Assembly (NCBI RefSeq): GCF_000949135.2
Contig: NZ_JTAN02000019.1
Coordinates: forward strand, 434,001-498,000
Length of the DNA stretch: 64,000 bases
Direction of reading: 5' to 3'
DNA from: Burkholderia sp. USMB20
GTDB lineage: Bacteria; Pseudomonadota; Gammaproteobacteria; Burkholderiales; Burkholderiaceae
Shown: piece after piece, positions 12,875 through 31,120 of the stretch
How positions within the stretch are numbered: position 1 is the stretch's first letter
How the letters are laid out: each line of letters starts with the position of its first letter
Made by a program: the position numbers and the translations under genes
The notes under the pieces: model-generated
Databases searched by the model: none
What the model was told of the DNA's origin: nothing
The model's input: the letters and a program-made list of their open reading frames with translations, nothing else

Positions 12875-13043
12875 GTCGTACACCCGTCAAGTGTCGACGA
12901 CGACGCCGTCGTGCCAGGTTCGCGCGGCCTGTCGACCACCCGGCGCCACCTGGCACTCGACACTTCGCTCGCGCGGCTGAACGTCGTCATCGGCGGGATT
13001 CGGCGCGGCACGGCGTTTTGCGAACGGCTGCCCGTGCGCGCGT

Positions 13044-14645
13044 TCATGATGCGGCGCGATGTCCCGCTGCTGTTGCGCCGGCGGGCGATCGAGGTGCTGC
13101 CGTCGCGGGGTGCGCGGACGACGGGGACGCCGCGGCGCCCGGTCCGGCAGGCGGCTGCGGCGCGGAAGCGGAAGCAGGCGCCGGATTCGGCGGCGACGAG
13201 GCGGGTTGGCTCGTGCGGGCACTCCCTGCCGAGCCTGACGCCGCTGATCCAGAAGCTGCTGGTCCTGAGCCCGCTGATCCCGACGCCGCCGACCCCGAAC
13301 CTGCTGACCCCGAACCCACTGCCCCTGAACCCGCCGCTCCCGATCCCGCCGCTCCCGAACCCACCGCCCCCGAACCCGCCGCTCCCGAACCCGCTGCCCC
13401 CGAACCCGCCGCCCCAACAGCCGGCGGCGCACGCAGCCCACCGTCCAGCGAGGTCCTACGAGCGGCCATGTCGGCCTGTTCGGCACTACGCTGGGCGGCG
13501 CGGTCGGCGGACAAGCGCGCCGCTTCGGCATCCGGATTGATCGTGTTGACGCGGATGCGTTCGACGTCGCCCACGCCCGCCAGCCGGTTCAACGGCACGT
13601 AATCCGTCCGAAACACCAGTTCGACGCCGCTGCTCAGGTTGAGGTCGGCGTGCGAACTCTCGGTCGTCTGGGTCCGGTCGGTCGACACGTAGCCGATCGT
13701 GCTCTGCACATTGGCCTCCGCGCCCCACGGCCCGAAGCGCGCGCCCCCGCTCACGCCCACCGTGTTGCGCGTGTCGAACTGCGAGCCGCGGTCGTTGGCG
13801 GCGACGCTGCTCGCGTCGATATGGAAATTCATCGCGGCGTTGAGCCGCCCGCTCTCGATGACGATGCGCTGCAAACCCATCTGCACCATCGTCGCGAGCA
13901 ACTGCTGGCGGTTGCGGGCCAGCACCTGCTGGGCGAGCGGCACCAGGCGCTCGGGATCGGCGGCCGTCACCGCGTCGCCCGGCCCCAATCCCAGCGCGGT
14001 GCGCAGCGCCGCTTCCGCCGGCGGGGTCGCGCCCGCGCGCAACGCCAGCCGGGTCGACGCATCGCGCTCGGCCTGCAGTTCCTGCTGGCGCTGGCGGCGC
14101 TCGTCCGGCGGCAGGCCCGCCAGTTCGTCGGCGTCGTCGGCGGCCTCGTCGTCGCCGGTGACCTCGTAGGCGGTGGGGAAATGCTCGGCCAGCCACTGCC
14201 GCGCGCCGGCGATACCGACGTTGCTGTCCGCGAAGCCTTCGGTGGTCTGCGCGACATTGCGGATCAGGTCGACGAACGCGGTCAGCTGCTGCTGGTTCGA
14301 ATCGTTCATCGCCTTGAAGACGCCCGTGATCAGCTCGGTCACGAAGCGCGGGAACGACACCGCGTTGAGCACGGCCCGGGTGGTGCCGGCCATCCGGTCG
14401 ATGGCGGTGCCCGAATACGCCGAGCCCGCGTCCTGCGCGACGGCCAGCGCGGTGCCGGGACGCGCCGCGAGCTCGTCATGATCGACCGCGAGCGAGCCGA
14501 TCCGTGCCAGTCCGGACGCGAGATCGCGGCGCATGGCCGGATCGAGTGCGCCGAAGCCCTGCTGCGCCGACAGCAGTTCACGGAGACGGTGGCGAACGTC
14601 GGGCCGCGGCACCGCCGAACGCGCAAGGTGGGCGGTTGCCGTCAT
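13044..14645 (-). CDS. Unknown protein, paralogue 4 of a four-member family, with Gly-Ser-Ala-rich tail
   Basis: Last gene of the sigma-54-controlled operon (533 residues). It shares with three other proteins here an N-terminal helical block (RLRELLSAQQGF…MRRDLASGLARI), a central helix pair (FPRFVTELITGVFKAMNDSN; LTAFVDLIRNVAQTTEGFAD) ending ARQWLAEHFP, a strand block (RQQLLATMVQMGLQRIVIES-GRLNAAMNFHIDAS) and a late block (FRTDYVPLNRLA, matching FKSDYLPLDKMA elsewhere). The last ~170 residues are a low-complexity tail of GSGAA-type repeats followed by Pro/Ala-rich sequence. No signal peptide or membrane segment is visible. ATG 14645 follows GGAG with 8-base spacing. It is separated from the upstream gene by 141 bp, more than any other junction in the operon. 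No known family was recognised. Confidence 0.8.
   Translation of the reverse strand: MTATAHLARSAVPRPDVRHRLRELLSAQQGFGALDPAMRRDLASGLARIGSLAVDHDELAARPGTALAVAQDAGSAYSGTAIDRMAGTTRAVLNAVSFPRFVTELITGVFKAMNDSNQQQLTAFVDLIRNVAQTTEGFADSNVGIAGARQWLAEHFPTAYEVTGDDEAADDADELAGLPPDERRQRQQELQAERDASTRLALRAGATPPAEAALRTALGLGPGDAVTAADPERLVPLAQQVLARNRQQLLATMVQMGLQRIVIESGRLNAAMNFHIDASSVAANDRGSQFDTRNTVGVSGGARFGPWGAEANVQSTIGYVSTDRTQTTESSHADLNLSSGVELVFRTDYVPLNRLAGVGDVERIRVNTINPDAEAARLSADRAAQRSAEQADMAARRTSLDGGLRAPPAVGAAGSGAAGSGAAGSGAVGSGAAGSGAAGSGAVGSGSAGSGSAASGSAGSGPAASGSAASGSAGSARTSQPASSPPNPAPASASAPQPPAGPGAAASPSSAHPATAAPRSPAGATAAGHRAAS
13229..13424. repeat. Degenerate 15-bp tandem repeat coding GSGAA-type pentapeptides
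   Basis: About thirteen copies of a 15-bp unit (gctcccgaacccgcc and variants on the + strand) encode the Gly-Ser-Ala-rich tail of the overlapping minus-strand protein. The unit keeps the reading frame, so copy-number change would only lengthen or shorten the tail. Boundaries are approximate. Confidence 0.8.
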
Positions 14646-14786
14646 CTCGGCGGCTCCGCCGCGCATCGCGCATTCCGCGTCCCGCAACACGTGAAGCACG
14701 GCCAGACGGGCGACGGCACGTCCGCCGCCGTCGGCACCCGGGTTCTGCCGCCCGTCTCGCGACGGCCTGAGCGACGCGGTTCCATG

Positions 14787-15782
14787 TCAGCTTCCGAGCG
14801 CCGCCCACGGGTTCGACGGCGCGGCCGGGCGCGCGGCCGGCGGCACGGCGCGGCCGTCGTCCGGGACGGAAGACACCTGGCCGTCGGGTTTCTCGCCGAG
14901 ACTGAGCGTCGCCTCGATCCAGTCGGCGGCGGAGGCGATCACCGGATTGTCGGTGCGCAGCAGCGGCGATGCGCCGCCCAGCGCATCCGCGACGTCCGCG
15001 AGCCATGCGATCACGGTCATCCCGGCCTTGCCGCGCCGGACATAGGCGGCAGGCTGGCGCGGCGGCTGCCGCGAAAGCCGGCCGATGCCGGCGACCACGC
15101 CCCAGATGTCGCGCGCGGCGAAGCCGTGACGCAGGTCGGCATGGCCGAGGATCGCGAACGCGTCCCTGAGCATGCCGACGATCTCGCCGGCCATGAACGC
15201 GGTCACGCCGGTACAGGCGGCGCCGAGATTCTGCGCGAGCGCGCGCGCGGCGTTGCAGACTCGCGCCTGGCGCCCGGGATCCCCGCCCGGGTCGGCACCG
15301 GGCGTCTCGTCGAGCTTGTAGAGCGCCTCGCAAAGCACGAGCATGCATTCCTCGAACTGGACGTTGCGCTCGGCATCCGCGGCCGCCGGGCCGTACGCGG
15401 TGCCGAACAACCGTGCATAGAACGCCGCGCGCTCGCCGGCCGCGAGCTTCTCGGCGCGGTGACGCCACCAGTTGGCGACCAGCGGCTCCGCGCCGCCGAG
15501 ATCGACGCCGACGGCGCCGCTCGCCGACAGTCCGGCGAGCGCCTCGACCGCAGGGATCACGCCCGCGGGCTCGAGGTCGGCCGCCAGATAGAGCGACGCG
15601 AGCGCCCGCAGCTGCGCCTTGTCGACGCGCGCGGCAACGGGATCGGGAATCGCGATGTCGCCGAGCTCGTCGAGCGCGAACGCGAGGCCGTGCGCGGTCG
15701 CGCGCTCGACGAGCCGCTCCCCCGACCGGATGGCCGCCGCGAGCCCGGCATCCGCCGGCGGGACGATGAGCATGCGCGCCAT
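14787..15782 (-). CDS. Unknown alanine-rich helical protein, related to the 606-residue protein of the same operon
   Basis: A 331-residue, mainly helical, alanine-rich protein without signal peptide. Its region 185-300 (AARALAQNLGAACTG, MAGEIVGMLRDAFAIL, then HGFAARDIWGVVAGI) aligns by eye with the C-terminal half of the 606-residue protein at 19625-21445 (AARDLAGNLSLHGYG, AAREIQSQVKFMIDLLQ, then GCYGAKDMWQVIDQV), and both continue with a strand like MTVIAWLADVADAL / IITAWLANNVDRV. The two therefore appear to share a domain. ATG 15782 lies 3 bp after the stop of the upstream paralogue, so translation is probably coupled. No function can be named. Confidence 0.78.
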   Translation of the reverse strand: MARMLIVPPADAGLAAAIRSGERLVERATAHGLAFALDELGDIAIPDPVAARVDKAQLRALASLYLAADLEPAGVIPAVEALAGLSASGAVGVDLGGAEPLVANWWRHRAEKLAAGERAAFYARLFGTAYGPAAADAERNVQFEECMLVLCEALYKLDETPGADPGGDPGRQARVCNAARALAQNLGAACTGVTAFMAGEIVGMLRDAFAILGHADLRHGFAARDIWGVVAGIGRLSRQPPRQPAAYVRRGKAGMTVIAWLADVADALGGASPLLRTDNPVIASAADWIEATLSLGEKPDGQVSSVPDDGRAVPPAARPAAPSNPWAALGS

Positions 15783-15785
15783 GAT

Positions 15786-17087
15786 TCAGTGCTGCCCGGC
15801 CGGCACGCCGGCGGCGGGGGCCGGCTTGTTGGGGTTGTACGGCGTCGAGTTGCCCTGGATCACCGACATCATCTCGGGCGTCGCCATCTTGTCGAGCGGC
15901 AGGTAGTCGCTCTTGAAGTTGACGCGGACCTCGCCCGACAGTTTCGCCTTCACCTCGGCCTTCGATTCGCTCGTGTCGTCGAGCGCCGACCCGACGGTGG
16001 CCACGTGCTCCTGCTGCCCCTCGAACGCGGCGTCGGCCGAATACGGCGTGTACCAGCTGCCGTAATGGGCGTTGAGCGATTCCTTGTATTTCTGGCTCTC
16101 GCGGTCGTGCATCGACGCGGTGTAGGTGCGTTTCGCCGTGTCGCTGGCGCGCATGTCGAACACCACCTTGGCGTTGATCGACCCGTCGGTGACGACGATG
16201 CGGTTGATGCCGAGCATGACCATCGACGACAGCAGCTGCTGGCGCTGCTTCGCCATCTGCAGGCGCGCCGCGGTGACGAGGCGCAGTTCCGACTTGTCGT
16301 CGGACAGGTCGGTCACGGGCGGATCGAGGTTGTAGTTCCGGCTGATCTCGGCAAGCCGCTGCTGCGCGTTGTCGCCCTGCGCCACCAGCCGCGTCGGGGC
16401 CGCCGCCGCGGCCGCGCCGGCGCTGTCCGCGTCGAACGCGTCGGCGCCGTCCTGCGCCTGCACCGACAGCACGTCGGGGAACGAATCGGCGAGATAGTCG
16501 CGGCCGGCGCCCTCGCTGATGTTGTCGCTCATGAACTGGGCGGTGGTCTTGGCGACATTGGCGATCAGCTCGCCGTACGCGCGCATCTGTTCGATCGAGC
16601 TTTCGACGATCGCCTGGAACACGTTCTTGATCAGGCCTCCTACGAATTTCGGGAAATCGACCTTCTGCACCATCTGGCCGAACTGCTCGACGCCCTGCTT
16701 CACCGCGCCGGCCTGGAAGTCCTTGCCGGCGAAGCCGGGATCCTGCGCGAGCTGGCGCTTGGTCGCGGTGACGGGATCGTCGGCCAGCGCCGCGGCGGCC
16801 GGCGCCGGACCCGGCGGCACGAGCGGGTGCGCGAGGCCGGTGGGCGGCAGTTCGCCGTTCGCCTCGCGCTCGGCAATCTCGGCATGCACGCCGTTCGGGT
16901 CGGCCAGGTAGGCGAGCACCCGCACCGTATCGGCGGCGATGCGGCGGCGCTCGTCGTCGGGCAGGTCGAGGAACGACGGAATCGCGGTCAGCAGGCGGCG
17001 CACCTCGGGCCGCGTCGCGTCGAACGCGGCGGCGCTCGTGGGCGGCCGCACCGGGTGGAGCGCGTCGGGGGGAGCGGGCAGGCGCAT
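15786..17087 (-). CDS. Unknown protein, paralogue 3 of a four-member family
   Basis: A 433-residue soluble-looking protein, best preserved example of the family together with the next gene. Blocks in order: N-terminal helices (VRRLLTAIPSFLDLPDDER, then IAADTVRVLAYLADPNG; about 15-60), the central pair FPKFVGGLIKNVFQAIVESS and MRAYGELIANVAKTTAQFMS (about 130-175), YLADSFPDVLSV, the strand block RQQLLSSMVMLGINRIVVTD followed by GSINAKVVFDMRASD (about 275-310), and near the C-terminus VRVNFKSDYLPLDKMATPEM. It is separated from the genes on both sides by only 3 bp. It has no signal peptide, no catalytic motif and no recognised domain. Repeated use of the same architecture suggests subunits of one assembly, but this is inference. 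Confidence 0.82.
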   Translation of the reverse strand: MRLPAPPDALHPVRPPTSAAAFDATRPEVRRLLTAIPSFLDLPDDERRRIAADTVRVLAYLADPNGVHAEIAEREANGELPPTGLAHPLVPPGPAPAAAALADDPVTATKRQLAQDPGFAGKDFQAGAVKQGVEQFGQMVQKVDFPKFVGGLIKNVFQAIVESSIEQMRAYGELIANVAKTTAQFMSDNISEGAGRDYLADSFPDVLSVQAQDGADAFDADSAGAAAAAAPTRLVAQGDNAQQRLAEISRNYNLDPPVTDLSDDKSELRLVTAARLQMAKQRQQLLSSMVMLGINRIVVTDGSINAKVVFDMRASDTAKRTYTASMHDRESQKYKESLNAHYGSWYTPYSADAAFEGQQEHVATVGSALDDTSESKAEVKAKLSGEVRVNFKSDYLPLDKMATPEMMSVIQGNSTPYNPNKPAPAAGVPAGQH

Positions 17088-17090
17088 GGC

Positions 17091-18482
17091 TCAGTTTCCC
17101 CTGGCCGCAGCCGGTGCCGGCGCGGCGGCCGGCGCCGCCGCCGGGGCTGAAGCCGCAGCGGGGGCGGACGCCGCCGGCGGCGTTTTCGGGCTGGGCAGCA
17201 CGTTCGGATCGGCGGGCGTCGCGTTGCCGGTGATGGTGGCGATCATCTGCGGCGTCGCCATCTTGTCGAGCGGCAGGTAGTCGCTCTTGAAATTGACGTC
17301 GACCGCGCCGGACAGCTGGATCTTGGTCTGCATCGCCGCGTTGCTGGTTTCCGACGCGGCCGTCGACGCGGTGATGATCGGCTTGTTCTCGTATTCGTAG
17401 TCGCCCTTCGCGTAGTAGTCGGCGCTGTACTGGCGGCCGTTGTCCTTGTCGTTGCTGGAGTCGTACTTGCCGCCGCGATCGTAGGTGCCCTTGCCGGCGT
17501 AGGTCGACTGGACGTTGCCGTCCTTGTCGCGGGCGAGGTCGACCGCGGTGGCGCTGCGCTGCTTCGAAAGCGTGTCCTGCGCGCGCACGTCGTAGATGAT
17601 CTTCGCGGAGATCTTGCCGTCGGTGACGACGATGCGGTTGATGCCCATCAGCACGATCGACGCCAGCATCTGCTGGCGCTGCTTGGCGAGCTGCATCTTG
17701 AAGCGATTGACGATCGCCAGCTCGGAGGCCTCGTCCGACAGGTCGAAGGTATCGCCGTCGCCCATCTGCAGGCGCGCGCGCACGGTCTTCGACGCTTCGT
17801 CCGGGTCGACCCCGTCGCGCACCTGCACGCGCGGGCTCGGCGTGTCGCCGCTGTCGTCCATGCCGATCTCGAACAGGTCGGGAAACTGGCCGACCATATG
17901 ATCGCGCGCCTGGTTCTCCGTCACATGTTCGTCGGCGAACTGGCCGAGCGATTTCGCCACCTGCGCGATCATTTCCTGATACGCCTTCATCTGCTCGATC
18001 GAGCTGTGCGTGATCGACTGGAACACGCCGCTGATCAGGCTCGCGACGAAGGTCGGGAACTTGACCTGGTTCAGCAGCTCGCCCGCGACCGCCGCGCCCT
18101 CGTGCGCGGCCGCCGCGGTGAATTTGGACTTGCCGATGCTGTCGACGGCCTGGTTGTGCGTCGAGAAATCCGCCTCGTGCGCGGAATGATCCGTGTTGTC
18201 GTCGAGCGCGCGCGCCGGCGCGGTGCCCACCCCGCCCGGAATCTCGTGGCCGGCGAACCCTTCGGGCCGCGCGAGGTAATCGGCGATCAACGCGGTGTTG
18301 CGCGCGATGTCGCGGCGATCGGCGTCGGGCATCGCGTTGAACGCCTGCGACCGGGTCAACATCTGCGCGACGCCTTGGCGCACTTCGTCGGCGGGCACCG
18401 GCGGCGTGTGACGCGGAGCGGTCGCCGCGGCGCGTGGCGGCGGCGGCGCGATCGGCGTGGAACGGGCAGCTTGCGGGAACAT
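17091..18482 (-). CDS. Unknown protein, paralogue 2 of a four-member family
   Basis: A 463-residue protein. It shares with its neighbour the helical block (VAQMLTRSQAFNAMPDADR, then DIARNTALIADYLARPEG), the pair FPTFVASLISGVFQSITHSS and MKAYQEMIAQVAKSLGQFAD, the strand block RQQMLASIVLMGINRIVVTD, and VDVNFKSDYLPLDKMATPQM. A charged, Tyr- and Gly-rich insert (about 325-375, for example KGTYDRGGKYDSSNDKDN) separates the strand block from the C-terminal block. The C-terminus is an Ala/Pro-rich tail and the N-terminus is Pro-rich. ATG 18482 is preceded by GAGG at five-base spacing. No signal peptide is present. Confidence 0.82.
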   Translation of the reverse strand: MFPQAARSTPIAPPPPRAAATAPRHTPPVPADEVRQGVAQMLTRSQAFNAMPDADRRDIARNTALIADYLARPEGFAGHEIPGGVGTAPARALDDNTDHSAHEADFSTHNQAVDSIGKSKFTAAAAHEGAAVAGELLNQVKFPTFVASLISGVFQSITHSSIEQMKAYQEMIAQVAKSLGQFADEHVTENQARDHMVGQFPDLFEIGMDDSGDTPSPRVQVRDGVDPDEASKTVRARLQMGDGDTFDLSDEASELAIVNRFKMQLAKQRQQMLASIVLMGINRIVVTDGKISAKIIYDVRAQDTLSKQRSATAVDLARDKDGNVQSTYAGKGTYDRGGKYDSSNDKDNGRQYSADYYAKGDYEYENKPIITASTAASETSNAAMQTKIQLSGAVDVNFKSDYLPLDKMATPQMIATITGNATPADPNVLPSPKTPPAASAPAAASAPAAAPAAAPAPAAARGN

Positions 18483-18521
18483 GGCGACCTCGCGGGAAAT
18501 GCGTGACGACGCGATTCGGAT

Positions 18522-19574
18522 TCAGTTGGCCTGGGCGGGCGCGTCCGCCGGCAGTTCGAACTCGATGGGGCGCAGGTAGAGACTCACCCGTGCCGGGCAG
18601 GCCGCGTCCGTGCGCAGGCTGATGATCGAGAAGCGGCCCGGCCAGTGCGCGTCCTCCGGCGTGAACGCGCCCATCCAGCGCTCGAGCGCCTGCAATCCGC
18701 GCGGACGCTCGGCGAGCCCCATCGTCAGCAGGCTCAGGAACGCGGGCGGCACGTCGGGGATCGCCGACAGCAGCACGTAGAGTTCGAAATCCGGCCCGTC
18801 CGGGCCGAGCCCGAACGCGAGCAGCGCGCCGTGCGGCGGCAGGTCGAAGCGCCCGCCGAGCACCAGCCCCAGGAGCTGCATGATGCCGGGCAGCCGATGG
18901 CCGATGCCGAGCGCATCCATGACCGGCTGCAGATCGGCGAGCCGCAGCGCCCGGGTACACGCGAACGTGAGCCGCTGGCCGCCGAGATCGCGCTGGGCCG
19001 CCATCGTGGTGAAGAGCGGCTTGAGCCCCGGCACCATCTGCAGCGCGGCCTGGACGATGCCGGCCAGGTCGCGGGGCAGGTTCTCGATCGTGCCGGCATC
19101 GCCGGGCAGCTCGTAGTACACCTTGGACGCATAGAGCCCGTCGCGGTCATAGCTGGAGCCGAAGAACGCGCCGTAGTCGAGGTTGCCGCCGGGCCGCGCG
19201 AAGCCCCGGAACGGCTCGCTCGCCTGGTCGAACCAGTGCAGCGCCTCGCGGCCGATGAAGTCGCGGATCAGCTTGCGCATTTCGCGGGTCGACTCGTCGC
19301 GCCGGTCGATCGCCGACGCCTCCGGCGGCAACGGCTCGATCGTGAAGCGCAGCTTGCCCGGCTGGCTTTCCGAGAAGCTGGGCTCGAACGGCACCGCCAT
19401 CGGCATCAGCGCGTTGTCGCGGAACCGCAGATCGTCGGCGCCGTCGCCGAAGGTGCGCAGGAACAGGTCGCGCGACGGCGCGAATGGATCGGCGGTGCCG
19501 AGGCTTCGCGCGGCGCTTTTCAGGCGGCGTTCGACCCGGGCGACGACCGGTTCGCGGATTGAGGTCAGGGGCAT
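18522..19574 (-). CDS. Unknown 350-residue protein of the sigma-54 operon
   Basis: A soluble-looking protein with no recognised family. It has alternating helices and amphipathic strands ending in pairs of aromatic residues: DRDGLYASKVYYELPGD (about 140-156), PDFELYVLLSAIPDVPP, and ARVSLYLRPIEFELP at the C-terminus. Such K/L-x-Y-x strands recur in ABBA-barrel aromatic prenyltransferases, and a distant relation is possible, but no pocket residues could be confirmed, so this is only a weak idea. ATG 19574 follows GGAG at 7-8 bases. Gaps are 50 bp to the upstream gene and 39 bp to the downstream one, consistent with the same operon. Confidence 0.75.
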   Translation of the reverse strand: MPLTSIREPVVARVERRLKSAARSLGTADPFAPSRDLFLRTFGDGADDLRFRDNALMPMAVPFEPSFSESQPGKLRFTIEPLPPEASAIDRRDESTREMRKLIRDFIGREALHWFDQASEPFRGFARPGGNLDYGAFFGSSYDRDGLYASKVYYELPGDAGTIENLPRDLAGIVQAALQMVPGLKPLFTTMAAQRDLGGQRLTFACTRALRLADLQPVMDALGIGHRLPGIMQLLGLVLGGRFDLPPHGALLAFGLGPDGPDFELYVLLSAIPDVPPAFLSLLTMGLAERPRGLQALERWMGAFTPEDAHWPGRFSIISLRTDAACPARVSLYLRPIEFELPADAPAQAN

Positions 19575-19624
19575 GGCTCGGCTCCGGCAGGGTTCGAAAA
19601 TGGCGCGGCACACGCGACGCCGCT

Positions 19625-21445: not shown

Positions 21446-21503
21446 TTAACTTCTCCTTGAAATCCGGTCGGTTCGGGGGAGTGAGCGGAATCCCGTGCGC
21501 CAG

Positions 21504-22976
21504 TCAGCCGTCGTCGGCACGGCCGTCCTTGCCCGTGCAACCGTCGTCGCCCGCCGCTTCGTACGCGTCGATGCGGCCGGACAGCGCCTGCAGCGCCGCT
21601 GCCGCGTCGAGAATGCCGGCGCCGCAGCCGTCGGCCGCGCCGGGCGCGAACGGGCGCGCGGTGGCGACGACCAGCTCGCGTACCGTCGCGCCGTCGAGCG
21701 GATAGGCGCGGCGCTGCGCGTACGCGACGAGCAGCGCCGCGGCGCCCGCGACGAACGGCGCGGCGAAACTGGTGCCGGTCGCGAGCTGATAGGCCTCGAT
21801 CGCGCTCGTCAGCACCCGTTCGCCCGGGGCGCACAGCGCGACGTGCGGGCCGCGCGTCGAGAACGGGGTCGGCCGGCCGTCGTCGCCGACGGCGCCGACC
21901 GCGATCACCTGCGGATAGGCGGCGGGCCAGTAGCGGGTCACGGCGCCGTTGTTGCCGCTCGCGGCCACGAGAATGCAGCCGCGCGCGGCGGCATACGCGA
22001 CCGTGTCGGCGTGCGGTTTCGGGCGGTTGGCGGCGATCGTCGCGTCGTCGGTGCCGAAGCTCATGTTGATCACCTTCGCGCCGAGGTCGACCGCGAGCTT
22101 GAGCGCGCGATCGAGGTCGGCGATCGCGCCGAGCCCGATCGCATGCGCCTTGCCCGGCAGGCGGGCGGCCGCCAGCGCGCGCATCGGCAGGATGCGGCAA
22201 TCGCCGCCGAGCCCGCGCGGCATCGCCACGCCTTCGGCGGCGATGATGCCCGCGCAGCCCATGCCGTGACCGACGAAGCGGTCCTCGGGAAAATCGCCGC
22301 GATGGCCGTGACCGCTCAGCAGCTGCACGCCGGGCGACAAGTCGCCGGGCTCGAGACGCACCGTATCGGCGCCCGCGCGGAAGGCATGCGCGAATTCGGG
22401 ATGCTGGCGCGCGATGCCGCTGTCGATCAGACCGACCGTGACGCCGCTGTCGCCCGGCTCGATCGCGTGTGCGTCGGCCATGCGCACCAGCGCGCGCGCA
22501 TCCTGCGCAACCCGCGCGGCCGGCGGCACGGGCGCCAAGCGGCCGGGCGCGTCCATCGGGACCGTCGCCACGTAGTTGGGCGTCACGCTTTCCACGGTCG
22601 CGAGCTGGGCGAGCGAGTCGCACAGCGCACCGATCGGCGTGCCCGCCGGCACGCGCAGCAGCAGCGTGCGGGCCATGCCGGTCGTCTGTTCGATCGCGTC
22701 GTAGCCGAGGTGCGCATGCCCGGGCACCCAGCGCCCGGCCGCCGCGCTGAACGGGCGCACCGCGAGAAAGCGGCCGGCGAACGCAACCACGATGCGGTCG
22801 ACCGGGCCGCCGTCGATGCATTGCGCGGCGGCCAGCGCGCCGCGCGTCACGTCGCGGATCGACGGCACGTGCTCGGGCGCTTCGCCGAGCGCCAGCTTGA
22901 CGAGCAGGCAGGTCGGCAGGCTGAACTGACGCTCGCCGGGCGATGCCCACGGCGTGCCGAGTGCATGGATCGTCAT
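21504..22976 (-). CDS. Subtilisin-like (S8 family) serine protease without signal peptide
   Basis: A 490-residue protease. The catalytic triad is Asp185 (VGLIDSGIA), His237 (FVGHGMGCAG) and Ser403 (GTSFAAPFVAG), with oxyanion-hole Asn342 in AASGNNGA. The 170-residue N-terminal part (LLLRVPAGTPIGAL…VESVTPNYVATVP) looks like an inhibitor-type propeptide domain, so the enzyme may be made as a zymogen. There is no secretion signal, unlike most S8 enzymes, so it is either cytoplasmic or exported by another route. ATG 22976 overlaps the stop of the upstream gene (ATGA), indicating translational coupling. The C-terminus is short and acidic. It may process or activate products of the same operon, for example the multidomain hydrolase. 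Confidence 0.92.
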   Translation of the reverse strand: MTIHALGTPWASPGERQFSLPTCLLVKLALGEAPEHVPSIRDVTRGALAAAQCIDGGPVDRIVVAFAGRFLAVRPFSAAAGRWVPGHAHLGYDAIEQTTGMARTLLLRVPAGTPIGALCDSLAQLATVESVTPNYVATVPMDAPGRLAPVPPAARVAQDARALVRMADAHAIEPGDSGVTVGLIDSGIARQHPEFAHAFRAGADTVRLEPGDLSPGVQLLSGHGHRGDFPEDRFVGHGMGCAGIIAAEGVAMPRGLGGDCRILPMRALAAARLPGKAHAIGLGAIADLDRALKLAVDLGAKVINMSFGTDDATIAANRPKPHADTVAYAAARGCILVAASGNNGAVTRYWPAAYPQVIAVGAVGDDGRPTPFSTRGPHVALCAPGERVLTSAIEAYQLATGTSFAAPFVAGAAALLVAYAQRRAYPLDGATVRELVVATARPFAPGAADGCGAGILDAAAALQALSGRIDAYEAAGDDGCTGKDGRADDG

Positions 22977-23794
22977 GGCCGCGCCTCCTCCTGGCCGGGC
23001 ACGGCGGCCAGGGTCATGGGCCTGGCCGCGGGCGCCGGCGGCGGCGCGAATGCGCTCAGGTCGAACGCCAGCGCGGCGGCATGGCGGCTCGTCGGCGAGA
23101 CGGCGAGTTCGCCGGCCCACTGGTCGCGGCCCGGTGCGAGCAGCAGCTCGTCGTCCGCCGATTGCAGCACCGCGACCGGGCGATTGCCGATCCGCACCAG
23201 CGGCGCGTGCGTGCCGTTGACGAGATTGCGCCCGATCACGCGCAGCAGCGGCGCCGCATCGGGCTGCGCGTCGGTGGCGGGCGCCACCGGTTCGATCCGC
23301 TCGACGCTCGGCGCAGACGCCCGGTCGAGCGCCCGGCGCAGCCGGTCCACGGACAGGTTGGTGACGCGGCCGATCGCATGCACCATGTCGCGCTGCTCGG
23401 CCTGCCGAAATTGCCGGACCGTGCGCACGCCGGCCCATTCCAGCCGCTTGCGGTCCTCGGCCGAGAGCTCGTCGCCCAGCGCGTCGAGCGGCTGGTCCTT
23501 GCTGTCCTCGGACAGCGCGATCGCGTTCTCCTCGATCGCCGGCCGCGTGATGGTCGTGAAGACGAGATGGAACGTGCTGCTGTCGGTGTCGCCCGGGCCG
23601 GCGGGACGAATCCACACCTCGCTTTCGACGAATTCGACATGGGCGCGCAGATCGAGGTTGACGTCCTTGATCGCGAAGGTCAGCGGCAGGTTGAGGTTGC
23701 GCGCCTTGATCGCCATCGCCGCCTGCGCGTTGTCGAGCTGGCTCTGCACGGCCTGGATGAAATCCTCGAGGCGCAGGCTGGCGTTGCTGTTCAT
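22973..23794 (-). CDS. Unknown protein with trypco2-like N-terminal domain and Ig-like C-terminal segment
   Basis: A 273-residue protein. Residues 1-80 (LRLEDFIQAVQSQLDNAQ, then PLTFAIKDVNLDLRAHVEF, STFHLVFTTITRP) have a helix-then-strand pattern like the trypsin-co-occurring domain 2 found beside peptidase genes. Residues 100-150 (LSAEDRKRLEWAGVRTVRQF, DMVHAIGRVTNLSVDRLRRA) look like paired helix-hairpin-helix units. Residues about 180-245 (LLRVIGRNLVNG, APLVRIGNRPVAVL) resemble an IPT/TIG-type Ig fold. It overlaps both neighbours by ATGA junctions, placing it tightly between paralogue 1 and the S8 protease. The domain labels are by-eye resemblance only. Confidence 0.78.
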   Translation of the reverse strand: MNSNASLRLEDFIQAVQSQLDNAQAAMAIKARNLNLPLTFAIKDVNLDLRAHVEFVESEVWIRPAGPGDTDSSTFHLVFTTITRPAIEENAIALSEDSKDQPLDALGDELSAEDRKRLEWAGVRTVRQFRQAEQRDMVHAIGRVTNLSVDRLRRALDRASAPSVERIEPVAPATDAQPDAAPLLRVIGRNLVNGTHAPLVRIGNRPVAVLQSADDELLLAPGRDQWAGELAVSPTSRHAAALAFDLSAFAPPPAPAARPMTLAAVPGQEEARP

Positions 23795-25224
23795 CGCACC
23801 GCTCCGTCGACCGGCACGGCTTCGAGGACGATCGCGAGCCGCGCCGGCTCCGCATCGAAGGCCGTGCGGGTCAGGAACTGCGGCAGGTCGCCGACCAGCT
23901 CGATGCCGTCGGCGCCCCATGCAATGCGCAGGTCGAGCGGCAGTTCCATCGCCATCGAGCGCACCCGCAGCCCTTGCGCCGCGCCCGCGGCCAGCTGTCC
24001 GGCAACGTCGGCGAACGCGCCCAGCGTCTCGCCCAGCGGCCGCGGCGCGATCATGTGGGTTCTCTCTGCGGATGCGGGTGCGGGTGCCGCCGGCGCCGAT
24101 GAAGCCGATGAAGCCGATGAGGCCGACGCGGCCGACGGGGCGGCGGACGCGGCCGGCACGCGCGGCACGGCGGCGGCGCCTGCGTCGCGCGGCGGAACGG
24201 GCACCGCCACCGGCGCGCGGCTGGGCGGCCGGCGGCGCGATCCGCGCGCCGGCCGGCTGTGCCGCTCCAGCAGATTGCGCGACGCCTCGTCGACGAAACG
24301 GTCGAGCGGCGGCAGCGTCTCCGATGCGAAATTGATGCTCACCTTTCCGGTCAGCGTCGCCTTGAGATCGGTGTCGGTTTGCGCATTGACCGCAACGGTC
24401 GAGACCGTGGTGACGACATCGCCCGACGTTCCCCGTCCGCCCCAGGTCGTCTGCCCCGACGACGGGTCGTTCGACGTCGCATACTGCACGGCGGCGCGGT
24501 CGCGCGCCTTGGCCTGGAAATTGAGGCTCGCCGCGATCGTCCCGTCCTTGACCACGACCCGCTGCATGCCCAGCAGCACCATCGTCGACAGCGTCGACAA
24601 CCGGTGCTGCGCGACGCGCTCGCGGGCGCGGGGCAGCACCACCGATTCGAGCGTCTGGGTATCGAACGCGCCGTCGGCCGCGCCGAAATCGGCGAGCCAC
24701 GCGGGCGCGGGGGCCGCGTCGTCGTCGCCGGGCCGGACGACCGGCGCGAGGCGGTAATCGCCGCCGTCCTGCGTCAGCGTCACGTCGTGCGGATACTGCT
24801 CGACCAGCCACGCGCGCGCCTGCCCGTCGGTCACGTTCTCCTGCGTGAACTGGTCCAGCGGCTTGGCCACCGCGCCGACCAGGTCGGCGAAACTCTCGAC
24901 CTGCTTGATCGAGCTGTCGACGATCGCGTCGTAGGTGCCATGCACGAGGCTCGCGACGAAGGTCGGAAAGTCGATCGCATCGGCCAGCGCCGCCGCACGC
25001 CGGCCGATGGCGTCCGTCGCCTTCTCCTTCGGAGGCGCCGACCCGCCCGGGGCCGCGGGCGCCGCGCCGCCGGCCGGCATTGCTTGCGGCAATGCGCCGT
25101 CCTGCCTGCCCGGGTCGCCCGATCCGGACCCGTCGACGATCTCGCGGCCGAACGCGTCGCGAGCAAGGGCCACCGCGGGCGTGATCGCGCCGCGGGGTGG
25201 CGGAGGGGGAATGTGGCGGGCCAT
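23791..25224 (-). CDS. Unknown protein, paralogue 1 of a four-member family, with extra C-terminal domain
   Basis: A 477-residue protein. It has the family's central pair (FPTFVASLVHGTYDAIVDSS; VESFADLVGAVAKPLDQFTQ), a strand block (LSTLSTMVLLGMQRVVVKDG, then TIAASLNFQAKARD) and a weaker late block (VSINFASETLPPLDRF). After an Ala/Ser/Pro-rich linker, residues about 395-477 form an extra domain (LGETLGAFADVAGQLAAGAA, LPLDLRIAWGADGIELVG, ARLAIVLEAVPV) that resembles the N-terminal domain of the downstream protein at 22973-23794. The other three paralogues lack it. ATG 25224 follows GAGGG. The gap to the multidomain hydrolase is 18 bp. Confidence 0.82.
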   Translation of the reverse strand: MARHIPPPPPRGAITPAVALARDAFGREIVDGSGSGDPGRQDGALPQAMPAGGAAPAAPGGSAPPKEKATDAIGRRAAALADAIDFPTFVASLVHGTYDAIVDSSIKQVESFADLVGAVAKPLDQFTQENVTDGQARAWLVEQYPHDVTLTQDGGDYRLAPVVRPGDDDAAPAPAWLADFGAADGAFDTQTLESVVLPRARERVAQHRLSTLSTMVLLGMQRVVVKDGTIAASLNFQAKARDRAAVQYATSNDPSSGQTTWGGRGTSGDVVTTVSTVAVNAQTDTDLKATLTGKVSINFASETLPPLDRFVDEASRNLLERHSRPARGSRRRPPSRAPVAVPVPPRDAGAAAVPRVPAASAAPSAASASSASSASSAPAAPAPASAERTHMIAPRPLGETLGAFADVAGQLAAGAAQGLRVRSMAMELPLDLRIAWGADGIELVGDLPQFLTRTAFDAEPARLAIVLEAVPVDGAVR

Positions 25225-25242
25225 CGCGCGTGTCCCTCGGGG

Positions 25243-28200
25243 TCAGGCGGGTTGCAGTTCGCGCGGCGCCGGTTGCGTGCCGCTTGCCGGAAGCGGCGGC
25301 GCGCCGTCGGCGCCGTGCACGATCTGGAAGCGGCCGTCGCCGTTCAGCGTCACCTCCGTCACGCCGACCTGGTCCTCCTCGCCGGCATGCCGGAACGTAG
25401 TGGTGATGCGCAGCTTGACGCTCGCCCGTTCGGCGGTGCCGGAACCGCGGCCGATATCCGCGCGCACGAACGCGCTCCAGCCGTCGAGCATCTGGCCGTG
25501 GTCCGCGGCAATCGTCACGTCGCCGACCGCGCCGCCCTGCCACGCCCAGTCGATCGACACCGGCGCCGACGTGCGGCCGCTCGGCCCGTCGATATACGGC
25601 CAGTCGTCGAGGGTGATGCGTTGGCCGGCCATGCGCGGCTGCCCGGCGCCGCCCGCCAGCGCGTTGGCGGGCTGGACCAGCCCGGCGAGCTGCGCGAGAT
25701 CGTAGCTGCGCCCGTCGCGGCTCTCGGTGCGCCGGGTCAGGCTCACGCCGAAGCCGAACTCGCCGCCCGCTGCCGGCGGCTCGACGCCGAGCGCGTAGCC
25801 CGCGCCCGCCGCGCTGCCGCGATTGATCGTGTGGCCGAACGTGCCGCCCGAATGCATCAGCTGGATCACGCCGATGCCGGCCGCCGCCTCGTATTCCGAC
25901 ACGAAATCCTCGTAGGTCATGATGTAGCGGCTGCCGGTCGAGTGGGTCGGCGGCACGGTCCGCGCGCCGGGATGGCCCGGCGTGCCGACCACGCGGTCCA
26001 GCGGATCGGTGATCCGCACGAAATACGCGTCGCCGCTGCGATACATGCCCGTCACCACCACCGCATGGAAGAAGTTGACCGGCGCGCGCACGACTTCGGC
26101 GACCCAGATCGGCCCGTTCGCCTCCAGCAGCCGCCGAAAGCCTTCGGGCGCGAAGCACGCATTGGGTTCGACCGTGAGCGTCGACACCCCGGCGAACCCC
26201 GCCACCTCGGCCGGCGCCAGGCCATCGCGCATCTGGCGCTCGAGGCTGATGCAGCGCGCGAGCAGCGTCGGGTCGACGCTCTGGTTGTCGCGCCAGCCGA
26301 TCACCATCGACGCGGCCGTCGCCCAGCAGCCCATGTCGGTGGGCTGCGGGGTCAGTTGCACCTCGTCCCAGTTCACCGACCAGTCGTCGGCGCCCAGCGC
26401 GCGCGCGGCGCCCGAGGCGACCGACAGCGCCTGGCTCGTGCCGAAGAAGCCGCGGCTCGGGATCGGCGCCTTCAGATGGCCGACATACGCGAGCGTTCCG
26501 GGGGCCATCGTGCCGGTCGACAGGCTGGCGAGATCGCCCGGCGGCACCCAGTGCGGCGGCACGCTGACGATCGGCCTGCCCGCGTCCTGGAACGACTGGG
26601 CGACCAGCTGCGAGCAGAAGAAGTTGTCGGTGTCGGCGCCTTCGCCGAGCTCGATGCGGCCGACGAAGCGGCGGCAGCGCTCCGCCGCGTCGCCCGACAG
26701 CAGGTCGCACGCGTGGCGGTCGATCAGGTAGCTGCCGCAGCGGACCAGCCCGACGTAGTTGAAACCGCGATCGAGGTAGCGCGCGGCGGCATCGGCAACC
26801 TGCTGCCGCTGCGTATCGGTCAGGCCCGGCACCCGGAACGCGACCGCGAGGCGCGCGTCGGCCAGCGCGTCCGCGAGCGGGCGCAACTGGACCCCGCCGG
26901 GAATCGCCTCGATCACCTGCCCGCCCTGGCCGACATAGAGCATCGCGTGGCTGACCTCCGCACCCGAGCCGGCACGAATGACGCCGGAGCCCGGATTGCC
27001 GGTGGTGCTGAGAATGATGTCGCCGATCTCCAGCGCGTCGGTGCCGATCGACAGGCCGCCGACGCCGGGATCGAGCGGAATGTCGTCGCCGAGGCCGCGC
27101 GCGGCGAGCCCCAGCGCCTGGCCGGCCGCCTGCGGCTGGCAGGTGCGGCTGGTGACCAGCCGCATGAAGTAGTCCCAGTCCCAATTGCCGTCGGGGCACG
27201 CGGTATGGCCGGTCGAGGTGTCGGCCTCGCGATGGCCCATGATCGTCGTGCGATTGATCGGCAGCTGATACTTGTCGCACAGCGACGCGACCAGCGCCGC
27301 CGAGGTTTCGTACTGGAGCTGGGTCGGCGCCAGCGCATCGAAATGCTGGACGGTGCCATTGCGACGCGGGTAGTCGGCGCCGCCGCGCTTCACCGCGATG
27401 TGTTCGATGCCGATGCTGCGCTGGTTCGAGCCCTTGCAGTGCCACGCCGTGTCGGCCTCGGAGACGAACTGGACGACTTCGCCCTCCTGCCCGACCAGGT
27501 AATGCGAACTCACCTTCGACGACGCATTGGTGAAGGTATTCACCACCTGCTGGACGGTGGGGACGTCGGCGATGTGGATGATGATGCGGTCGATCGTCTT
27601 GCTGCCGCGCCCCTCGTCGAAATTCGGGCTGGCGGCCGTGCGCGTGACGAGACTGTTCTCGCGCGCGCCCAGCGCCAGCGCGCTGGCCGTCGCGGACGGC
27701 TCGGCGGCCGCATCGTCGTCGCTGTACGGCGGCGTATCGATGCCGTAGGCCTCCGGGTCGGCGCTCAGGCCGCGCGCCCACGCAAGCGACGACGACGACG
27801 AGGTGGCGATCGTGCCCGCCGCGGCGCGCGAGACGCCGACGAAGACGCTCACCGGGCTGCCGACGCTGACGCCGGCCGACAGCGTGACGCCGACGAATTC
27901 ACCGCGGGCGTTGAACAGCGCCGAGATGCCGCCGGCCGGGGCTTCGCCGACCATCACGCCGACCGTCGTGCCGGTGCCCGCGAAATCGTCGATATGGCCG
28001 CGCAGCAGGCTGATCTGGCCGGTGAGGCTCGCCGACACGATGTAGCCGAAGTCGAGCTCGCCCGACACGAAGACGCCGATGTCGTCGCCATTGGCGTCGA
28101 AGATGAGGCCGACCGCGCCCGCGCCCCCGGATTCCAGCCCGGCGCCCGCACCCGCGCCGATCGAGACCGACAGGCCGTTGCGCATCGCGACCGGCAGCAG

Positions 28201-28341
28201 CAGCATCAGCGACGCGGTGGCCGGATTCGCGCTCAGAATCGCGCGCAGCGCGGCCCGCTCGACGGTCGAGAGCTTGCGCGGCCGCGGCCAGGTGAAGCCG
28301 CGGCGTTCGCCCGCGAGGCGGAACCCGGCATCGTCGCTCAT
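25243..28341 (-). CDS. Three-domain hydrolase: PGRP-type amidase + NlpC/P60-like + papain-like peptidase
   Basis: A 1,032-residue protein. Residues 1-180 are Gly-rich and strand-like, without family. Residues 245-400 form an Amidase_2/PGRP domain, which cleaves the MurNAc-L-Ala bond of peptidoglycan: zinc ligands His256 (IIIHIAD), His370 (MGHREA) and Cys382 (TACPDG), with Trp300-His301 (AWHC) nearby. Residues 430-605 match a YiiX-type permuted NlpC/P60 domain, with His465 (VSHAMLYVG) and Cys576 (FFCSQLV). Residues 660-785 match papain-like (C70/C39-type) peptidases, with Cys672 (DMGCWATAASM), His759 (FFHAVVVTG) and Asp779 (RITDPLD). The C-terminal 200 residues are of unknown fold. There is no signal peptide. 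ATG 28341 overlaps the upstream stop (ATGA). The protein resembles a delivered lytic effector or a polymorphic toxin in build, but no delivery module was recognised in it. Confidence 0.9.
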   Translation of the reverse strand: MSDDAGFRLAGERRGFTWPRPRKLSTVERAALRAILSANPATASLMLLLPVAMRNGLSVSIGAGAGAGLESGGAGAVGLIFDANGDDIGVFVSGELDFGYIVSASLTGQISLLRGHIDDFAGTGTTVGVMVGEAPAGGISALFNARGEFVGVTLSAGVSVGSPVSVFVGVSRAAAGTIATSSSSSLAWARGLSADPEAYGIDTPPYSDDDAAAEPSATASALALGARENSLVTRTAASPNFDEGRGSKTIDRIIIHIADVPTVQQVVNTFTNASSKVSSHYLVGQEGEVVQFVSEADTAWHCKGSNQRSIGIEHIAVKRGGADYPRRNGTVQHFDALAPTQLQYETSAALVASLCDKYQLPINRTTIMGHREADTSTGHTACPDGNWDWDYFMRLVTSRTCQPQAAGQALGLAARGLGDDIPLDPGVGGLSIGTDALEIGDIILSTTGNPGSGVIRAGSGAEVSHAMLYVGQGGQVIEAIPGGVQLRPLADALADARLAVAFRVPGLTDTQRQQVADAAARYLDRGFNYVGLVRCGSYLIDRHACDLLSGDAAERCRRFVGRIELGEGADTDNFFCSQLVAQSFQDAGRPIVSVPPHWVPPGDLASLSTGTMAPGTLAYVGHLKAPIPSRGFFGTSQALSVASGAARALGADDWSVNWDEVQLTPQPTDMGCWATAASMVIGWRDNQSVDPTLLARCISLERQMRDGLAPAEVAGFAGVSTLTVEPNACFAPEGFRRLLEANGPIWVAEVVRAPVNFFHAVVVTGMYRSGDAYFVRITDPLDRVVGTPGHPGARTVPPTHSTGSRYIMTYEDFVSEYEAAAGIGVIQLMHSGGTFGHTINRGSAAGAGYALGVEPPAAGGEFGFGVSLTRRTESRDGRSYDLAQLAGLVQPANALAGGAGQPRMAGQRITLDDWPYIDGPSGRTSAPVSIDWAWQGGAVGDVTIAADHGQMLDGWSAFVRADIGRGSGTAERASVKLRITTTFRHAGEEDQVGVTEVTLNGDGRFQIVHGADGAPPLPASGTQPAPRELQPA

Positions 28342-29063
28342 CCCCTGCGACACGGGTGCCGGTGCGATGGCGGGTGCCGGTGCGACGGCGGGTGCCGGTG
28401 CGACGGCGGATGCGGCGCGCGGCGGGGCGACGCCGACGCCGGCGCGGCGCGTCGCGGCGCCCGCGTTGCGGCATTGAGCGGCGGAAGCGGACCGAAGCCG
28501 TCGTCGTAATGGACGTCGTGGTGCGGCGCAGCGCCCTCGACGGCCGCTGCGGCGCGCGGGGGCGGCGCCCGGCCGGCCGGCGCCGGCACGGCGGTCGCGC
28601 CCGGCCGCGTGGCGTCGCCCGCCCAGTTCAGCAGCGGACTCCTGACGGCGGCAGCGCCGCGCGTCGGGAACACGCGGACCCGGCGCAATCCCCGGTCGCT
28701 GAGCCCCGACAGCGACACATACGGACTGTCGGCATTCGGCAGGACGTCGACCGTCCACGCATCGGCAGCGGGCGACGCCGCGGTGGCGAGGCCGAACCAC
28801 AGCCGGCTCGCGCCCGCGAAGCGCGCCAGCACGGCAGGCGGCACCATGAACACCGCTTCGCCACGCGGGATCGCCAGCAGGCCGTCCTCGCGGCTGGTAT
28901 AGAACGTCGACGACGTGCGCCCGTCCTTGCGCGTGAACAGCGCGGGATCGGTGGCGATCACCAGTTCCGCGACGCACGGCGCGTGGCCGACGCGAATCGT
29001 GAAGCCCAGCATCGGGAAACGGTCGGTCAGGACCATGCGGTTGGGATGGAGTTGCGCTGCCAT
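28338..29063 (-). CDS. Unknown 241-residue protein with His/Pro-rich repeat tail
   Basis: Residues 1-145 form a compact beta-rich region (MVLTDRFPMLGFTIRVGHAP, RLWFGLATAAS, GLSDRGLRRVRVF) without recognised family. Residues 150-241 are Ala/Pro/Arg-rich and end in three PPSHRH repeats. The tail overlaps the start of the next gene by 4 bp. In the tail region this frame has G or C at nearly every third codon position, while the frame of the downstream gene does not, which supports reading the tail as real protein rather than a frameshifted piece of the hydrolase gene. It lies 9 bp after the DUF3467 gene. Confidence 0.75.
   Translation of the reverse strand: MAAQLHPNRMVLTDRFPMLGFTIRVGHAPCVAELVIATDPALFTRKDGRTSSTFYTSREDGLLAIPRGEAVFMVPPAVLARFAGASRLWFGLATAASPAADAWTVDVLPNADSPYVSLSGLSDRGLRRVRVFPTRGAAAVRSPLLNWAGDATRPGATAVPAPAGRAPPPRAAAAVEGAAPHHDVHYDDGFGPLPPLNAATRAPRRAAPASASPRRAPHPPSHRHPPSHRHPPSHRHPCRRG
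28354..28407. repeat. Three 18-bp tandem repeats at a gene junction
   Basis: Three near-identical 18-bp units (gggtgccggtgcgacggc, first copy with one change) lie 13 bp before the hydrolase start on the coding strand and encode PPSHRH in the upstream protein. The unit is a multiple of three, so copy change would not break the frame. Confidence 0.85.
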
Positions 29064-29072
29064 GTCGTGTCC

Positions 29073-29471
29073 TCAGCTCTGGTTTTGATCGGGCTCGTCG
29101 CGACGGCCGCCGAGCATCGGCTTGCTGCGCGCATCGATCGCGCGCCGTTCGAATTCCTGCGGGGGAAGCATCTCCAGATCCGGTTCCGGGTCGCCGATGT
29201 CGGGGATTTCGTGGTGCGTCGCTTCGAACTGGGCAATCGCGCGCGCCAGCAGTTGCGCGAGCAGCTTCGCGTGCACCGGGCTGATCGCGACGCGACTCAT
29301 CAACTGGACGTTGCCGGATTGCGGCTCGACCTGCCCGGCATCGATCAGGAACTCGAACGCGTTGTGCCCGACCTCGAAATAGTTCGCATAACTGGCGAGC
29401 AGCGGCCGTGTCTGGCCGGCCGGCTGGGCCGGCTCCGGCGGGGCGTCCTGGCTTGGCTCGATGACGTGCAC
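29073..29471 (-). CDS. DUF3467-family small protein, first gene of the sigma-54 operon
   Basis: A 132-residue protein with the DUF3467 pattern: YANYFEVGHNAFEFLIDAGQ followed by MSRVAISPVHAKLLAQLLARAI. This family is small, widespread and of unknown function, and is often found next to unrelated accessory genes. GTG 29471 is preferred because AAGGAGG lies five bases upstream and the sigma-54 promoter ends shortly before it. A longer in-frame extension to 29636 would run through the promoter and has no family-like sequence. Thr/Pro-rich residues precede the domain. Confidence 0.85.
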   Translation of the reverse strand: MHVIEPSQDAPPEPAQPAGQTRPLLASYANYFEVGHNAFEFLIDAGQVEPQSGNVQLMSRVAISPVHAKLLAQLLARAIAQFEATHHEIPDIGDPEPDLEMLPPQEFERRAIDARSKPMLGGRRDEPDQNQS

Positions 29472-29516
29472 GACGGCCTCCTTGCATGGCGACGGGCGGT
29501 CTGTCCGTTCTGCTTC

Positions 29517-29531
29517 GCAAGGAGCGGGCCA
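29517..29531 (-). promoter_or_regulatory. Sigma-54 (-24/-12) promoter of the twelve-gene operon
   Basis: On the minus strand the sequence TGGCCCG-CTCC-TTGC matches the sigma-54 consensus TGGCACG-N4-TTGC in all but one listed position, with the required ten bases between GG and GC. Transcription should start around 29505, leaving a leader of about 35 nt that contains the AAGGAGG ribosome-binding site of the first gene. A sigma-54 activator gene lies immediately upstream. Confidence 0.85.
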
Positions 29532-29602
29532 ACGCGGGTGCGCCGGCGCAAGCACATGATTTGCCGTGGAATTTCCCGGCCGGTGCGGGATTCGGGAACG
29601 CT

Positions 29603-29637
29603 GCCGGGCTGTACCATGTGACAGCCCGGCTGTCACA
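29603..29637. promoter_or_regulatory. Palindromic upstream activator site, about 100 bp before the sigma-54 promoter
   Basis: Two nested inverted repeats share one arm. GCCGGGCTGT (29603-29612) pairs with ACAGCCCGGC (29621-29630) across 8 bases, and TGTGACAGCC (29617-29626) pairs with GGCTGTCACA (29628-29637) across 1 base. The position, about 100 bp upstream of the -24 element, is where sigma-54 activators bind. The dyad overlaps the last codons of the activator gene, and the GC-rich hairpin could also help end that transcript, though no U tract follows. Confidence 0.75.
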
Positions 29638-30595: not shown

Positions 30596-31120
30596 GCGCG
30601 CGCCGCCCGGCTAGCGAACCGTTGACGGATGATGCGCAGCCCCGATGTTCATCGCCACTTCCCCCCCGCTGGATGTTGAGGAACAAGACAACCATCCTCG
30701 ATGGCGATTGTTGGCACGCGTTTAATTAGTACTGTGATGCGTGTTGAATGGAGAGCCGCGTGTCACGGCGCCGGCCGATAACCAGTGTAGTTTCAATATG
30801 GAGATTCGTACAACCTGCCGACTACGCAATAACAAATATGTCATTTCACGCATTTTCATCAATTCATCCGCAATCGGGATGACGAACGGAAAGCCCGTCG
30901 CGGAATTCGGAGAATGCGTGTCGTTCACGAAGCGGGATCGGTGACTTCGCCAGTCGCGTACGTCGGTTGCGGTGAGGATGTGGCGCACGTGTCTGATGCG
31001 CGCGGAGACGGCGAGCCGCGTCGGGTTTCCGTGCCGCTCGATCGGCATGAACTGCCCGAGCGTCGAAACCCGAACCCGCAGCCTGCCGCCTCGCTGACGC
31101 ATTCGCGCACGCTGCCATCG
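30596..31120. other. AT-richer intergenic region upstream of the sigma-54 activator gene
   Basis: About 525 bp without a supportable gene. The stretch 30710-30900 is clearly poorer in GC than its surroundings (for example around TTTAATTAGTACTGTG at 30720-30735). It may hold the promoter of the activator gene and the 3' flank of the permease gene. A minus-strand frame of about 126 codons (30722-31102) has no family-like sequence or good start and was not accepted. Confidence 0.5.

Follow-up and report, generated by a model that had tools for sequence, protein, structure and literature searches.

What does the twelve-gene operon at positions 13044–29471 (minus strand) of a 64,000 nt stretch of the Burkholderia sp. 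USMB20 genome make, and does it belong to a system found elsewhere? The stretch, here called the window, is positions 434,001–498,000 of contig NZ_JTAN02000019.1 (assembly GCF_000949135.2), forward strand. An earlier note on this DNA had proposed a sigma-54-controlled candidate for an undescribed system. We found that the operon is real and a member of a widespread system, and no description of its gene set was found in the literature searched. The genes are lettered from A to L in the order of transcription: A encodes a DUF3467 protein, B and C the lytic protein, D paralogue 1, E a Trypco2-like protein, F an S8 protease, G a protein previously called collagen-like, H one previously called an orphan, I and J paralogues 2 and 3, K a relative of G and L paralogue 4; an activator gene, R, adjoins A. 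The gaps between neighbours, from A to L, are 9, −4, 18, −4, −4, 58, 50, 39, 3, 3 and 87 bp, and the last (K/L) becomes 141 bp with the gene caller's start for L at 14645. The array described in the earlier note (twelve minus-strand genes, gaps of at most 141 bp, three 4 bp overlaps and two 3 bp gaps) is present in the sequence. That description also held for the promoter and the activator and failed for several of the gene contents, and its interpretation was supported in part.

When 84,980 species genomes were scanned with the four paralogues, the best 80 of 89 relatives were kept and gave 63 loci (L003–L065), picked by paralogue similarity and not by synteny. A plasmid search added loci from Burkholderia pyrrocinia (L001) and Tolypothrix (L002), so that with the window 66 records were available, in which gene order was read from called genes. 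The nine-gene core D-E-F-G-H-I-J-K-L, which comprises paralogue 1, the Trypco2-like E, the S8 protease, G, H, paralogues 2 and 3, K and paralogue 4, is complete and in order in 43/66 records. In nine more (L010, L023, L025, L034, L038, L040, L042, L045 and L047) the core order is cut at the end of the contig or stretch. A further twelve (L050, L051, L053–L057, L059–L061, L063 and L065) are variants that differ in paralogue number, mostly D-E-F-G-H-J-K-L-J, some of them also cut, and a thirteenth variant, in Tolypothrix, has F-G-J-E. According to the record titles, several of which denote metagenome-assembled genomes, the carriers among these best 80 of 89 relatives represent eight phyla and include Alpha-, Beta- and Gammaproteobacteria, Actinomycetota, Cyanobacteriota, Chloroflexota, Acidobacteriota, Gemmatimonadota, Myxococcota and Thermodesulfobacteriota. 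The core gene order recurs across phyla, in unrelated bacteria. A tenth small gene, D2 (approximately 85 aa), precedes E and stands alone in 53/63 relatives' loci, whereas in the window it forms one gene with D. The subtilase and the prenyltransferase-fold gene are present in every complete class-1 operon seen, and H occurs as one copy per genome in the 37/37 carrier genomes searched, a set without that of L024. In Cellulomonas humilata (L008:6982–9954) the G frame continues through H as one frame of approximately 990 aa, seen in 1/66 records; such a fusion, if real, would hint at physical contact of G and H.

Protein C (25243–28341, minus strand) comprises a Gly-rich domain, Amidase_2, C92 and C70 modules and a conserved C-terminal domain; Pfam recognised Amidase_2 (1.8e-25), C70 (5.8e-19) and C92 (5.2e-9), and endolysin and amidase PHROGs also match it. 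The adjoining B (28338–29063, minus strand) had been taken for a separate protein with a His-rich tail. When intact proteins from L001 and L066 were used as tblastn queries, the match ran through B and then C in two frames of the window, changing frame in a Pro/Ala linker. By this alignment B is the N-terminal domain of C (Bdom), here in a frame of its own, relatives encode B and C together in a single protein, of which intact copies exist, and the His-rich end is the linker read out of frame. Either a genuine break or an error in the sequence could account for the split in the window.

We compared 29 C proteins, 28 from class-1 upstream stretches and that of L001. Domain identities rest on Pfam for 12 C-type proteins, including the window's, and for the others on profiles built from those segments. 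Bdom opens all 29 class-1 proteins examined, a start on which the architecture count was selected, and the conserved C-terminal domain is present in 27/29. Between these ends the modules form 24 architectures in the 29 proteins (C70 25, Amidase_2 20, trypsin-like 16, C92 9, Gly-rich 9 and M15 1). A recognised hydrolase module is present in 28/29; the exception, L075 (8319–11831, minus strand), has four copies of the C-terminal domain. Catalytic residues are mostly kept: for C70, Cys in 44/45 and His in 45/45; for the Amidase_2 zinc ligands, 31/32, 32/32 and 32/32; for C92, His in 18/20 and Cys in 17/20. With its constant frame around shuffled degradative modules that keep their catalytic residues, C resembles an effector of conflict or lysis, and turnover of architecture is as expected of conflict effectors. 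The earlier note's inference that the operon may deliver or control hydrolases of peptidoglycan and protein would fit this modular C. Polymorphic toxins likewise combine constant end domains with swapped catalytic modules; they differ in that here no known trafficking domain was recognised and several enzymes share one chain. No conserved immunity gene was seen, and no further recurrent family was recognised in the gene maps of 37 loci; a variable immunity gene is possible.

The 350 aa product of H (18522–19574, minus strand) is not an orphan in fold. Its predicted structure is a DMATS-type (PT-barrel) prenyltransferase fold over the full length, with 13–18% identity in the rows of the indole prenyltransferases CymD and PriB. 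The Pfam Trp_DMAT model gave 12.2 bits, below the cut-off of 25, and 22/42 members match it at E ≤0.5 (best 2e-4). Conserved positions are E64 (39/42), E69 (40/42), R76 (34/42), K151 (32/42), Q200 (42/42) and R335 (42/42), which may be equivalent to the prenyl-diphosphate-binding and catalytic residues of the DMATS active site. While the genes for indole prenyltransferases lie in natural-product clusters, H lies in an operon of hydrolase and putative scaffold genes.

F (21504–22976, minus strand) is an S8 subtilase (PF00082, 1.2e-38) in which the catalytic Asp, His, Asn and Ser are kept in 59/59 members. Its best NCBIfam match is the type VII secretion mycosin TIGR03921 (1.7e-46), at 159 bits against a cut-off of 278.75, followed by PatA (1.5e-28; 100 bits against 421) and QhpE (2e-12), both also below cut-off. 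A crude hydropathy scan of F showed no evident signal peptide or membrane anchor of the mycosin kind (highest KD19 1.64, from residue index 401; N-terminal KD11 1.94), and no ESX ATPase or WXG100 protein was recognised in the operon. E (22973–23794, minus strand) has weak matches to a Trypco2 domain, a helix-hairpin-helix-like region and a TIG-like C-terminus. The Trypco2-like label is borne out only weakly in the window (PF19631, 16 bits against a cut-off of 24.2), yet 10/25 aligned members match at E ≤0.1; TIG was matched weakly by 2/25. With these scores F falls short of the cut-off for the type VII mycosins and E of that for Trypco2.

The four paralogues, D (23791–25224, paralogue 1 fused to D2), I (17091–18482), J (15786–17087) and L (13044–14699), all on the minus strand, were aligned (alignment A1; I also in A3). 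Neither they nor G or K gave a convincing profile match, which together with the synteny across phyla upholds the proposal of an undescribed system. G (19625–21445, minus strand) is a large conserved protein without a Pfam or PHROGs match; the Gly-X-Y repeat for which it was called collagen-like was not seen in the other 38 members of a 39-row alignment (A5). K (14787–15782, minus strand) shares 26% identity with the C-terminal half of G (A2). L has a low-complexity tail, with a Gly-Ser-Ala-rich repeat stretch at 13220–13440 (minus strand).

How the operon is controlled depends on the copy. In the window, R (29633–30595, minus strand) encodes a sensorless sigma-54 activator, an AAA+ protein with a Fis-type helix-turn-helix (Pfam Sigma54_activat, 3e-67; HTH_8), and A (29073–29471, minus strand) a 132 aa DUF3467 protein (PF11950, 2.2e-10). 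The −24/−12 promoter TGGCCCGCTCCTTGCG (29516–29531, minus strand) agrees with 10/12 consensus positions (shuffle p 0.004). Regulators in 37 upstream stretches were assigned by blastp cluster, with a Pfam check of two proteins, the activator of the window and a single BTAD protein. A sigma-54 activator accompanies A in 12/37 and occurs without A in 1/37; a BTAD-type regulator was found in 16/37, often with small proteins x4 or x7 in place of A; and no regulator was called in 8/37, some of which end early. All 14 operons that begin with A have a −24/−12 element with at least 10/12 consensus positions, 28–132 bases before A, a set in which the window and two other Burkholderia copies have one identical sequence; 0/13 operons with x4 or x7 first reach 10/12. 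As read from these sequences, the promoter is matched to the regulator, appearing only with the corresponding operon type. Sigma-54 control thus applies to part of the family, and other copies have a BTAD (SARP-like) regulator. The Cellulomonas copy L008, which is close in core sequence, is of the BTAD type and lay outside the promoter test. Actinobacteria are not known to have sigma-54, and this copy works as a natural control for the sigma-54 promoter. A candidate activator site, found by eye, is the inverted repeat TGTGACAGCC G GGCTGTCACA at 29617–29637 of the window, whose 10-base arms match perfectly and which overlaps the activator stop codon.

In a tree of H (61 rows), starred branches place Cellulomonas and a second actinomycete within Pseudomonadota, and Pseudomonadota themselves require at least six label changes on such branches; the copy from Dyella, a gammaproteobacterium, groups as sister to those of Burkholderia. 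This branching shows horizontal transfer. Presence is sporadic: 1/299 sampled Pseudomonadota, which is the centre genome itself, and 7/65 Burkholderia, centre included; with the paralogue profile and centres included, 3/292 Cyanobacteriota, 3/188 Myxococcota and 2/296 Actinomycetota. In a Burkholderia genome that lacks H (locus L110 of G370), only 83 bp separate the two window flanks, one of which runs to 12865 and the other from 31120. The missing unit of approximately 18.3 kb (12866–31119) consists of the operon and R; no further genes were called inside it, and its GC content is 0.708 against 0.679 and 0.651 in the flanks. The blastn match between B. pyrrocinia and the window stops near both unit edges, so the location in B. 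pyrrocinia differs. The dN/dS values of 0.08–0.32 for the genes compared with L001, L005 and Dyella (L006), among them A against L001 only and B left out, indicate that these genes are under purifying selection.

The reading that we prefer, with a probability of about 0.4, is that the operon specifies a horizontally transferred, cytoplasmic scaffold, gated by a protease and dependent on prenylation, that deploys modular lytic cargo for self-lysis or antagonism. Paralogues 1 to 4, the pair G and K, and E and D2 as Trypco2-like adaptors would form the scaffold, to which the subtilase F, the prenyltransferase-fold H and the cargo protein C, with its peptidoglycan amidases and several peptidases flanked by constant end domains, would be added. 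Once the regulator had induced the operon, C would dock on the scaffold via its end domains; H would prenylate an aromatic residue of an operon protein, whereby the complex would mature or reach the membrane; F would cleave a component and so activate or release C; and C would then degrade the cell wall and proteins. Since no complete class-1 operon seen lacks F or H, the system probably uses cleavage and prenylation in its assembly or firing. We consider terminal lysis of the producer, either as self-sacrifice or as release against neighbours, the likeliest outcome; terminal release is likelier than secretion because the operon showed neither an exporter nor a conserved immunity gene nor an evident signal peptide.

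Several results weigh against this reading. No exit route for cytoplasmic peptidoglycan hydrolases was identified, and in the crude hydropathy scan neither a signal peptide nor a conserved membrane segment was evident in any operon protein. The sequence profile of H finds no DMATS chain and the fold alone shows no function, while the predicted paralogue model was of moderate quality and had no structural match. The variant operons encode their hydrolases (Amidase_3, C92, NlpC/P60, C70 and trypsin) in genes of their own at the end; with the cargo split from the Bdom protein in this way, docking via the end domains of C cannot apply to the whole family. In cyanobacteria the version F-x-G-J-x-x-E, in which long proteins of unknown kind are interspersed (L002:12328–23543 and L132:4411–14722), lacks detectable H and C modules, as does L133, so neither is essential to every relative.

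Some neighbourhoods have features of their own. The L002 plasmid, typed as mobilizable, has a peptidoglycan-binding protein gene after F and an alpha/beta hydrolase gene before it. The operon tail in L092 (1–5627, minus strand) includes two Amidase_3 proteins, one with C70, and a 1078 aa protein with a weak Ig-like match. In B. pyrrocinia, genes for an adenylate/guanylate cyclase and a patatin-like phospholipase follow the operon (L001:25409–30006), a pair that was not seen to recur beside other copies in the gene maps. Three-gene sets in Myxococcota (L134:489–2761) and Actinomycetota (L135:8784–11466) consist of a J-like gene, a D-like gene and a third small gene, in L135 with a weak helix-hairpin-helix match; no S8, G or H was detected beside them, and they represent a possible ancestral module.

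The earlier note had also held that the operon fits no known injection system, and this stands: no phage, contractile or secretion core was found among the proteins scanned. Extracellular contractile injection systems (eCIS) are described in PMC8213781 as having BTAD regulators, a spread in environmental bacteria, variable cargo and release by lysis; the first three are shared with the operon family, and the fourth would be on the reading preferred here. No sheath, tube, baseplate or spike was recognised by Pfam in the twelve proteins and R or by PHROGs in the ten proteins other than A and F, nor, unlike in eCIS, was DUF4157. With no core structural protein matched in these scans, a contractile injection system (eCIS, type VI secretion system or tailocin) was rejected.

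Among other explanations, a digestion or predation cassette, whose complex is released or exported and degrades the walls and proteins of competitors or prey as food without self-sacrifice, is unlikely. The recognised cargo modules are degradative, and by title the carriers include Lysobacter, Myxococcota, Massilia and Cellulomonas, some of which are known as lytic or degradative. However, Roseobacter, Erythrobacter and Bradyrhizobium are also carriers, the operon has no evident signal peptide or exporter, and a digestive enzyme needs neither four paralogues nor a prenyltransferase.

Abortive defence, in which a sensor-adaptor-effector cascade of E, D2 and the peptidases would kill the infected cell, seems distinctly improbable. 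The sporadic, transferred pattern would suit it, and PADLOC, run on the ten proteins other than A and B, matched F weakly to 'subtilase' (4e-19) and IetS (9e-5), but it returned nothing for the other nine. Both PMC7159879 and PMC10907252 assign Trypco2 an adaptor role in peptidase conflict systems, and the Trypco/VMAP systems of the former resemble the operon in having such an adaptor beside peptidases. They differ in that the core protease here is an S8 enzyme and C is an array of peptidoglycan and protein hydrolases, and peptidoglycan amidases would be odd intracellular effectors. No MoxR, vWA, VMAP or STAND sensor protein was found among the twelve operon proteins, and by Pfam the AAA+ gene R is the sigma-54 activator; a MoxR-vWA-VMAP ternary system, which requires MoxR AAA+ and vWA, was thus rejected.

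We attach as little weight to maturation of a peptide or protein by subtilase and prenyltransferase, as in the pathways of cyanobactins and other ribosomally synthesized and post-translationally modified peptides, with C an accessory. Its support is the resemblance of F to mycosin, PatA and QhpE, all below cut-off, and the statement, in PMC3227686, that the PT-barrel fold was in 2011 confined to secondary metabolism, in which the enzymes then known act. Against this, 28/29 class-1 C proteins examined have a recognised hydrolase module, the four paralogues would be left unexplained, and no precursor peptide was noticed, though none was looked for. Cell-wall or envelope remodelling under stress, as an ordinary physiological role, is very unlikely: the amidase modules would fit, as would the sensorless activator, a type familiar from envelope stress (PspF), but presence in 7/65 Burkholderia and the module turnover of C would not.

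Returning to the lytic scaffold, its strongest form would be a new class of bacterial nanomachine, in which a cytoplasmic paralogue scaffold would be lipidated by a dedicated prenyltransferase for proteins or peptides, of the indole-prenyltransferase fold, and, when a subtilase fires it, would set free a lytic polyprotein of several exchangeable enzymes. We regard this as doubtful; if true, lysis or antagonism would be the work of a self-contained system with no relation to phage tails, secretion systems or gasdermins. A core of approximately ten genes, most of whose proteins have no family model, has kept its order across phyla, has moved horizontally as a unit, and pairs a PT-barrel prenyltransferase fold with a subtilase and a reshuffled hydrolase array. 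The same block in unrelated bacteria suggests a new weapon or self-destruct machine. If confirmed, it would add a kind of bacterial lysis or conflict machine, lytic enzymes could be drawn from it in modular form, and prenylation of proteins or peptides might gain a new role in bacteria.

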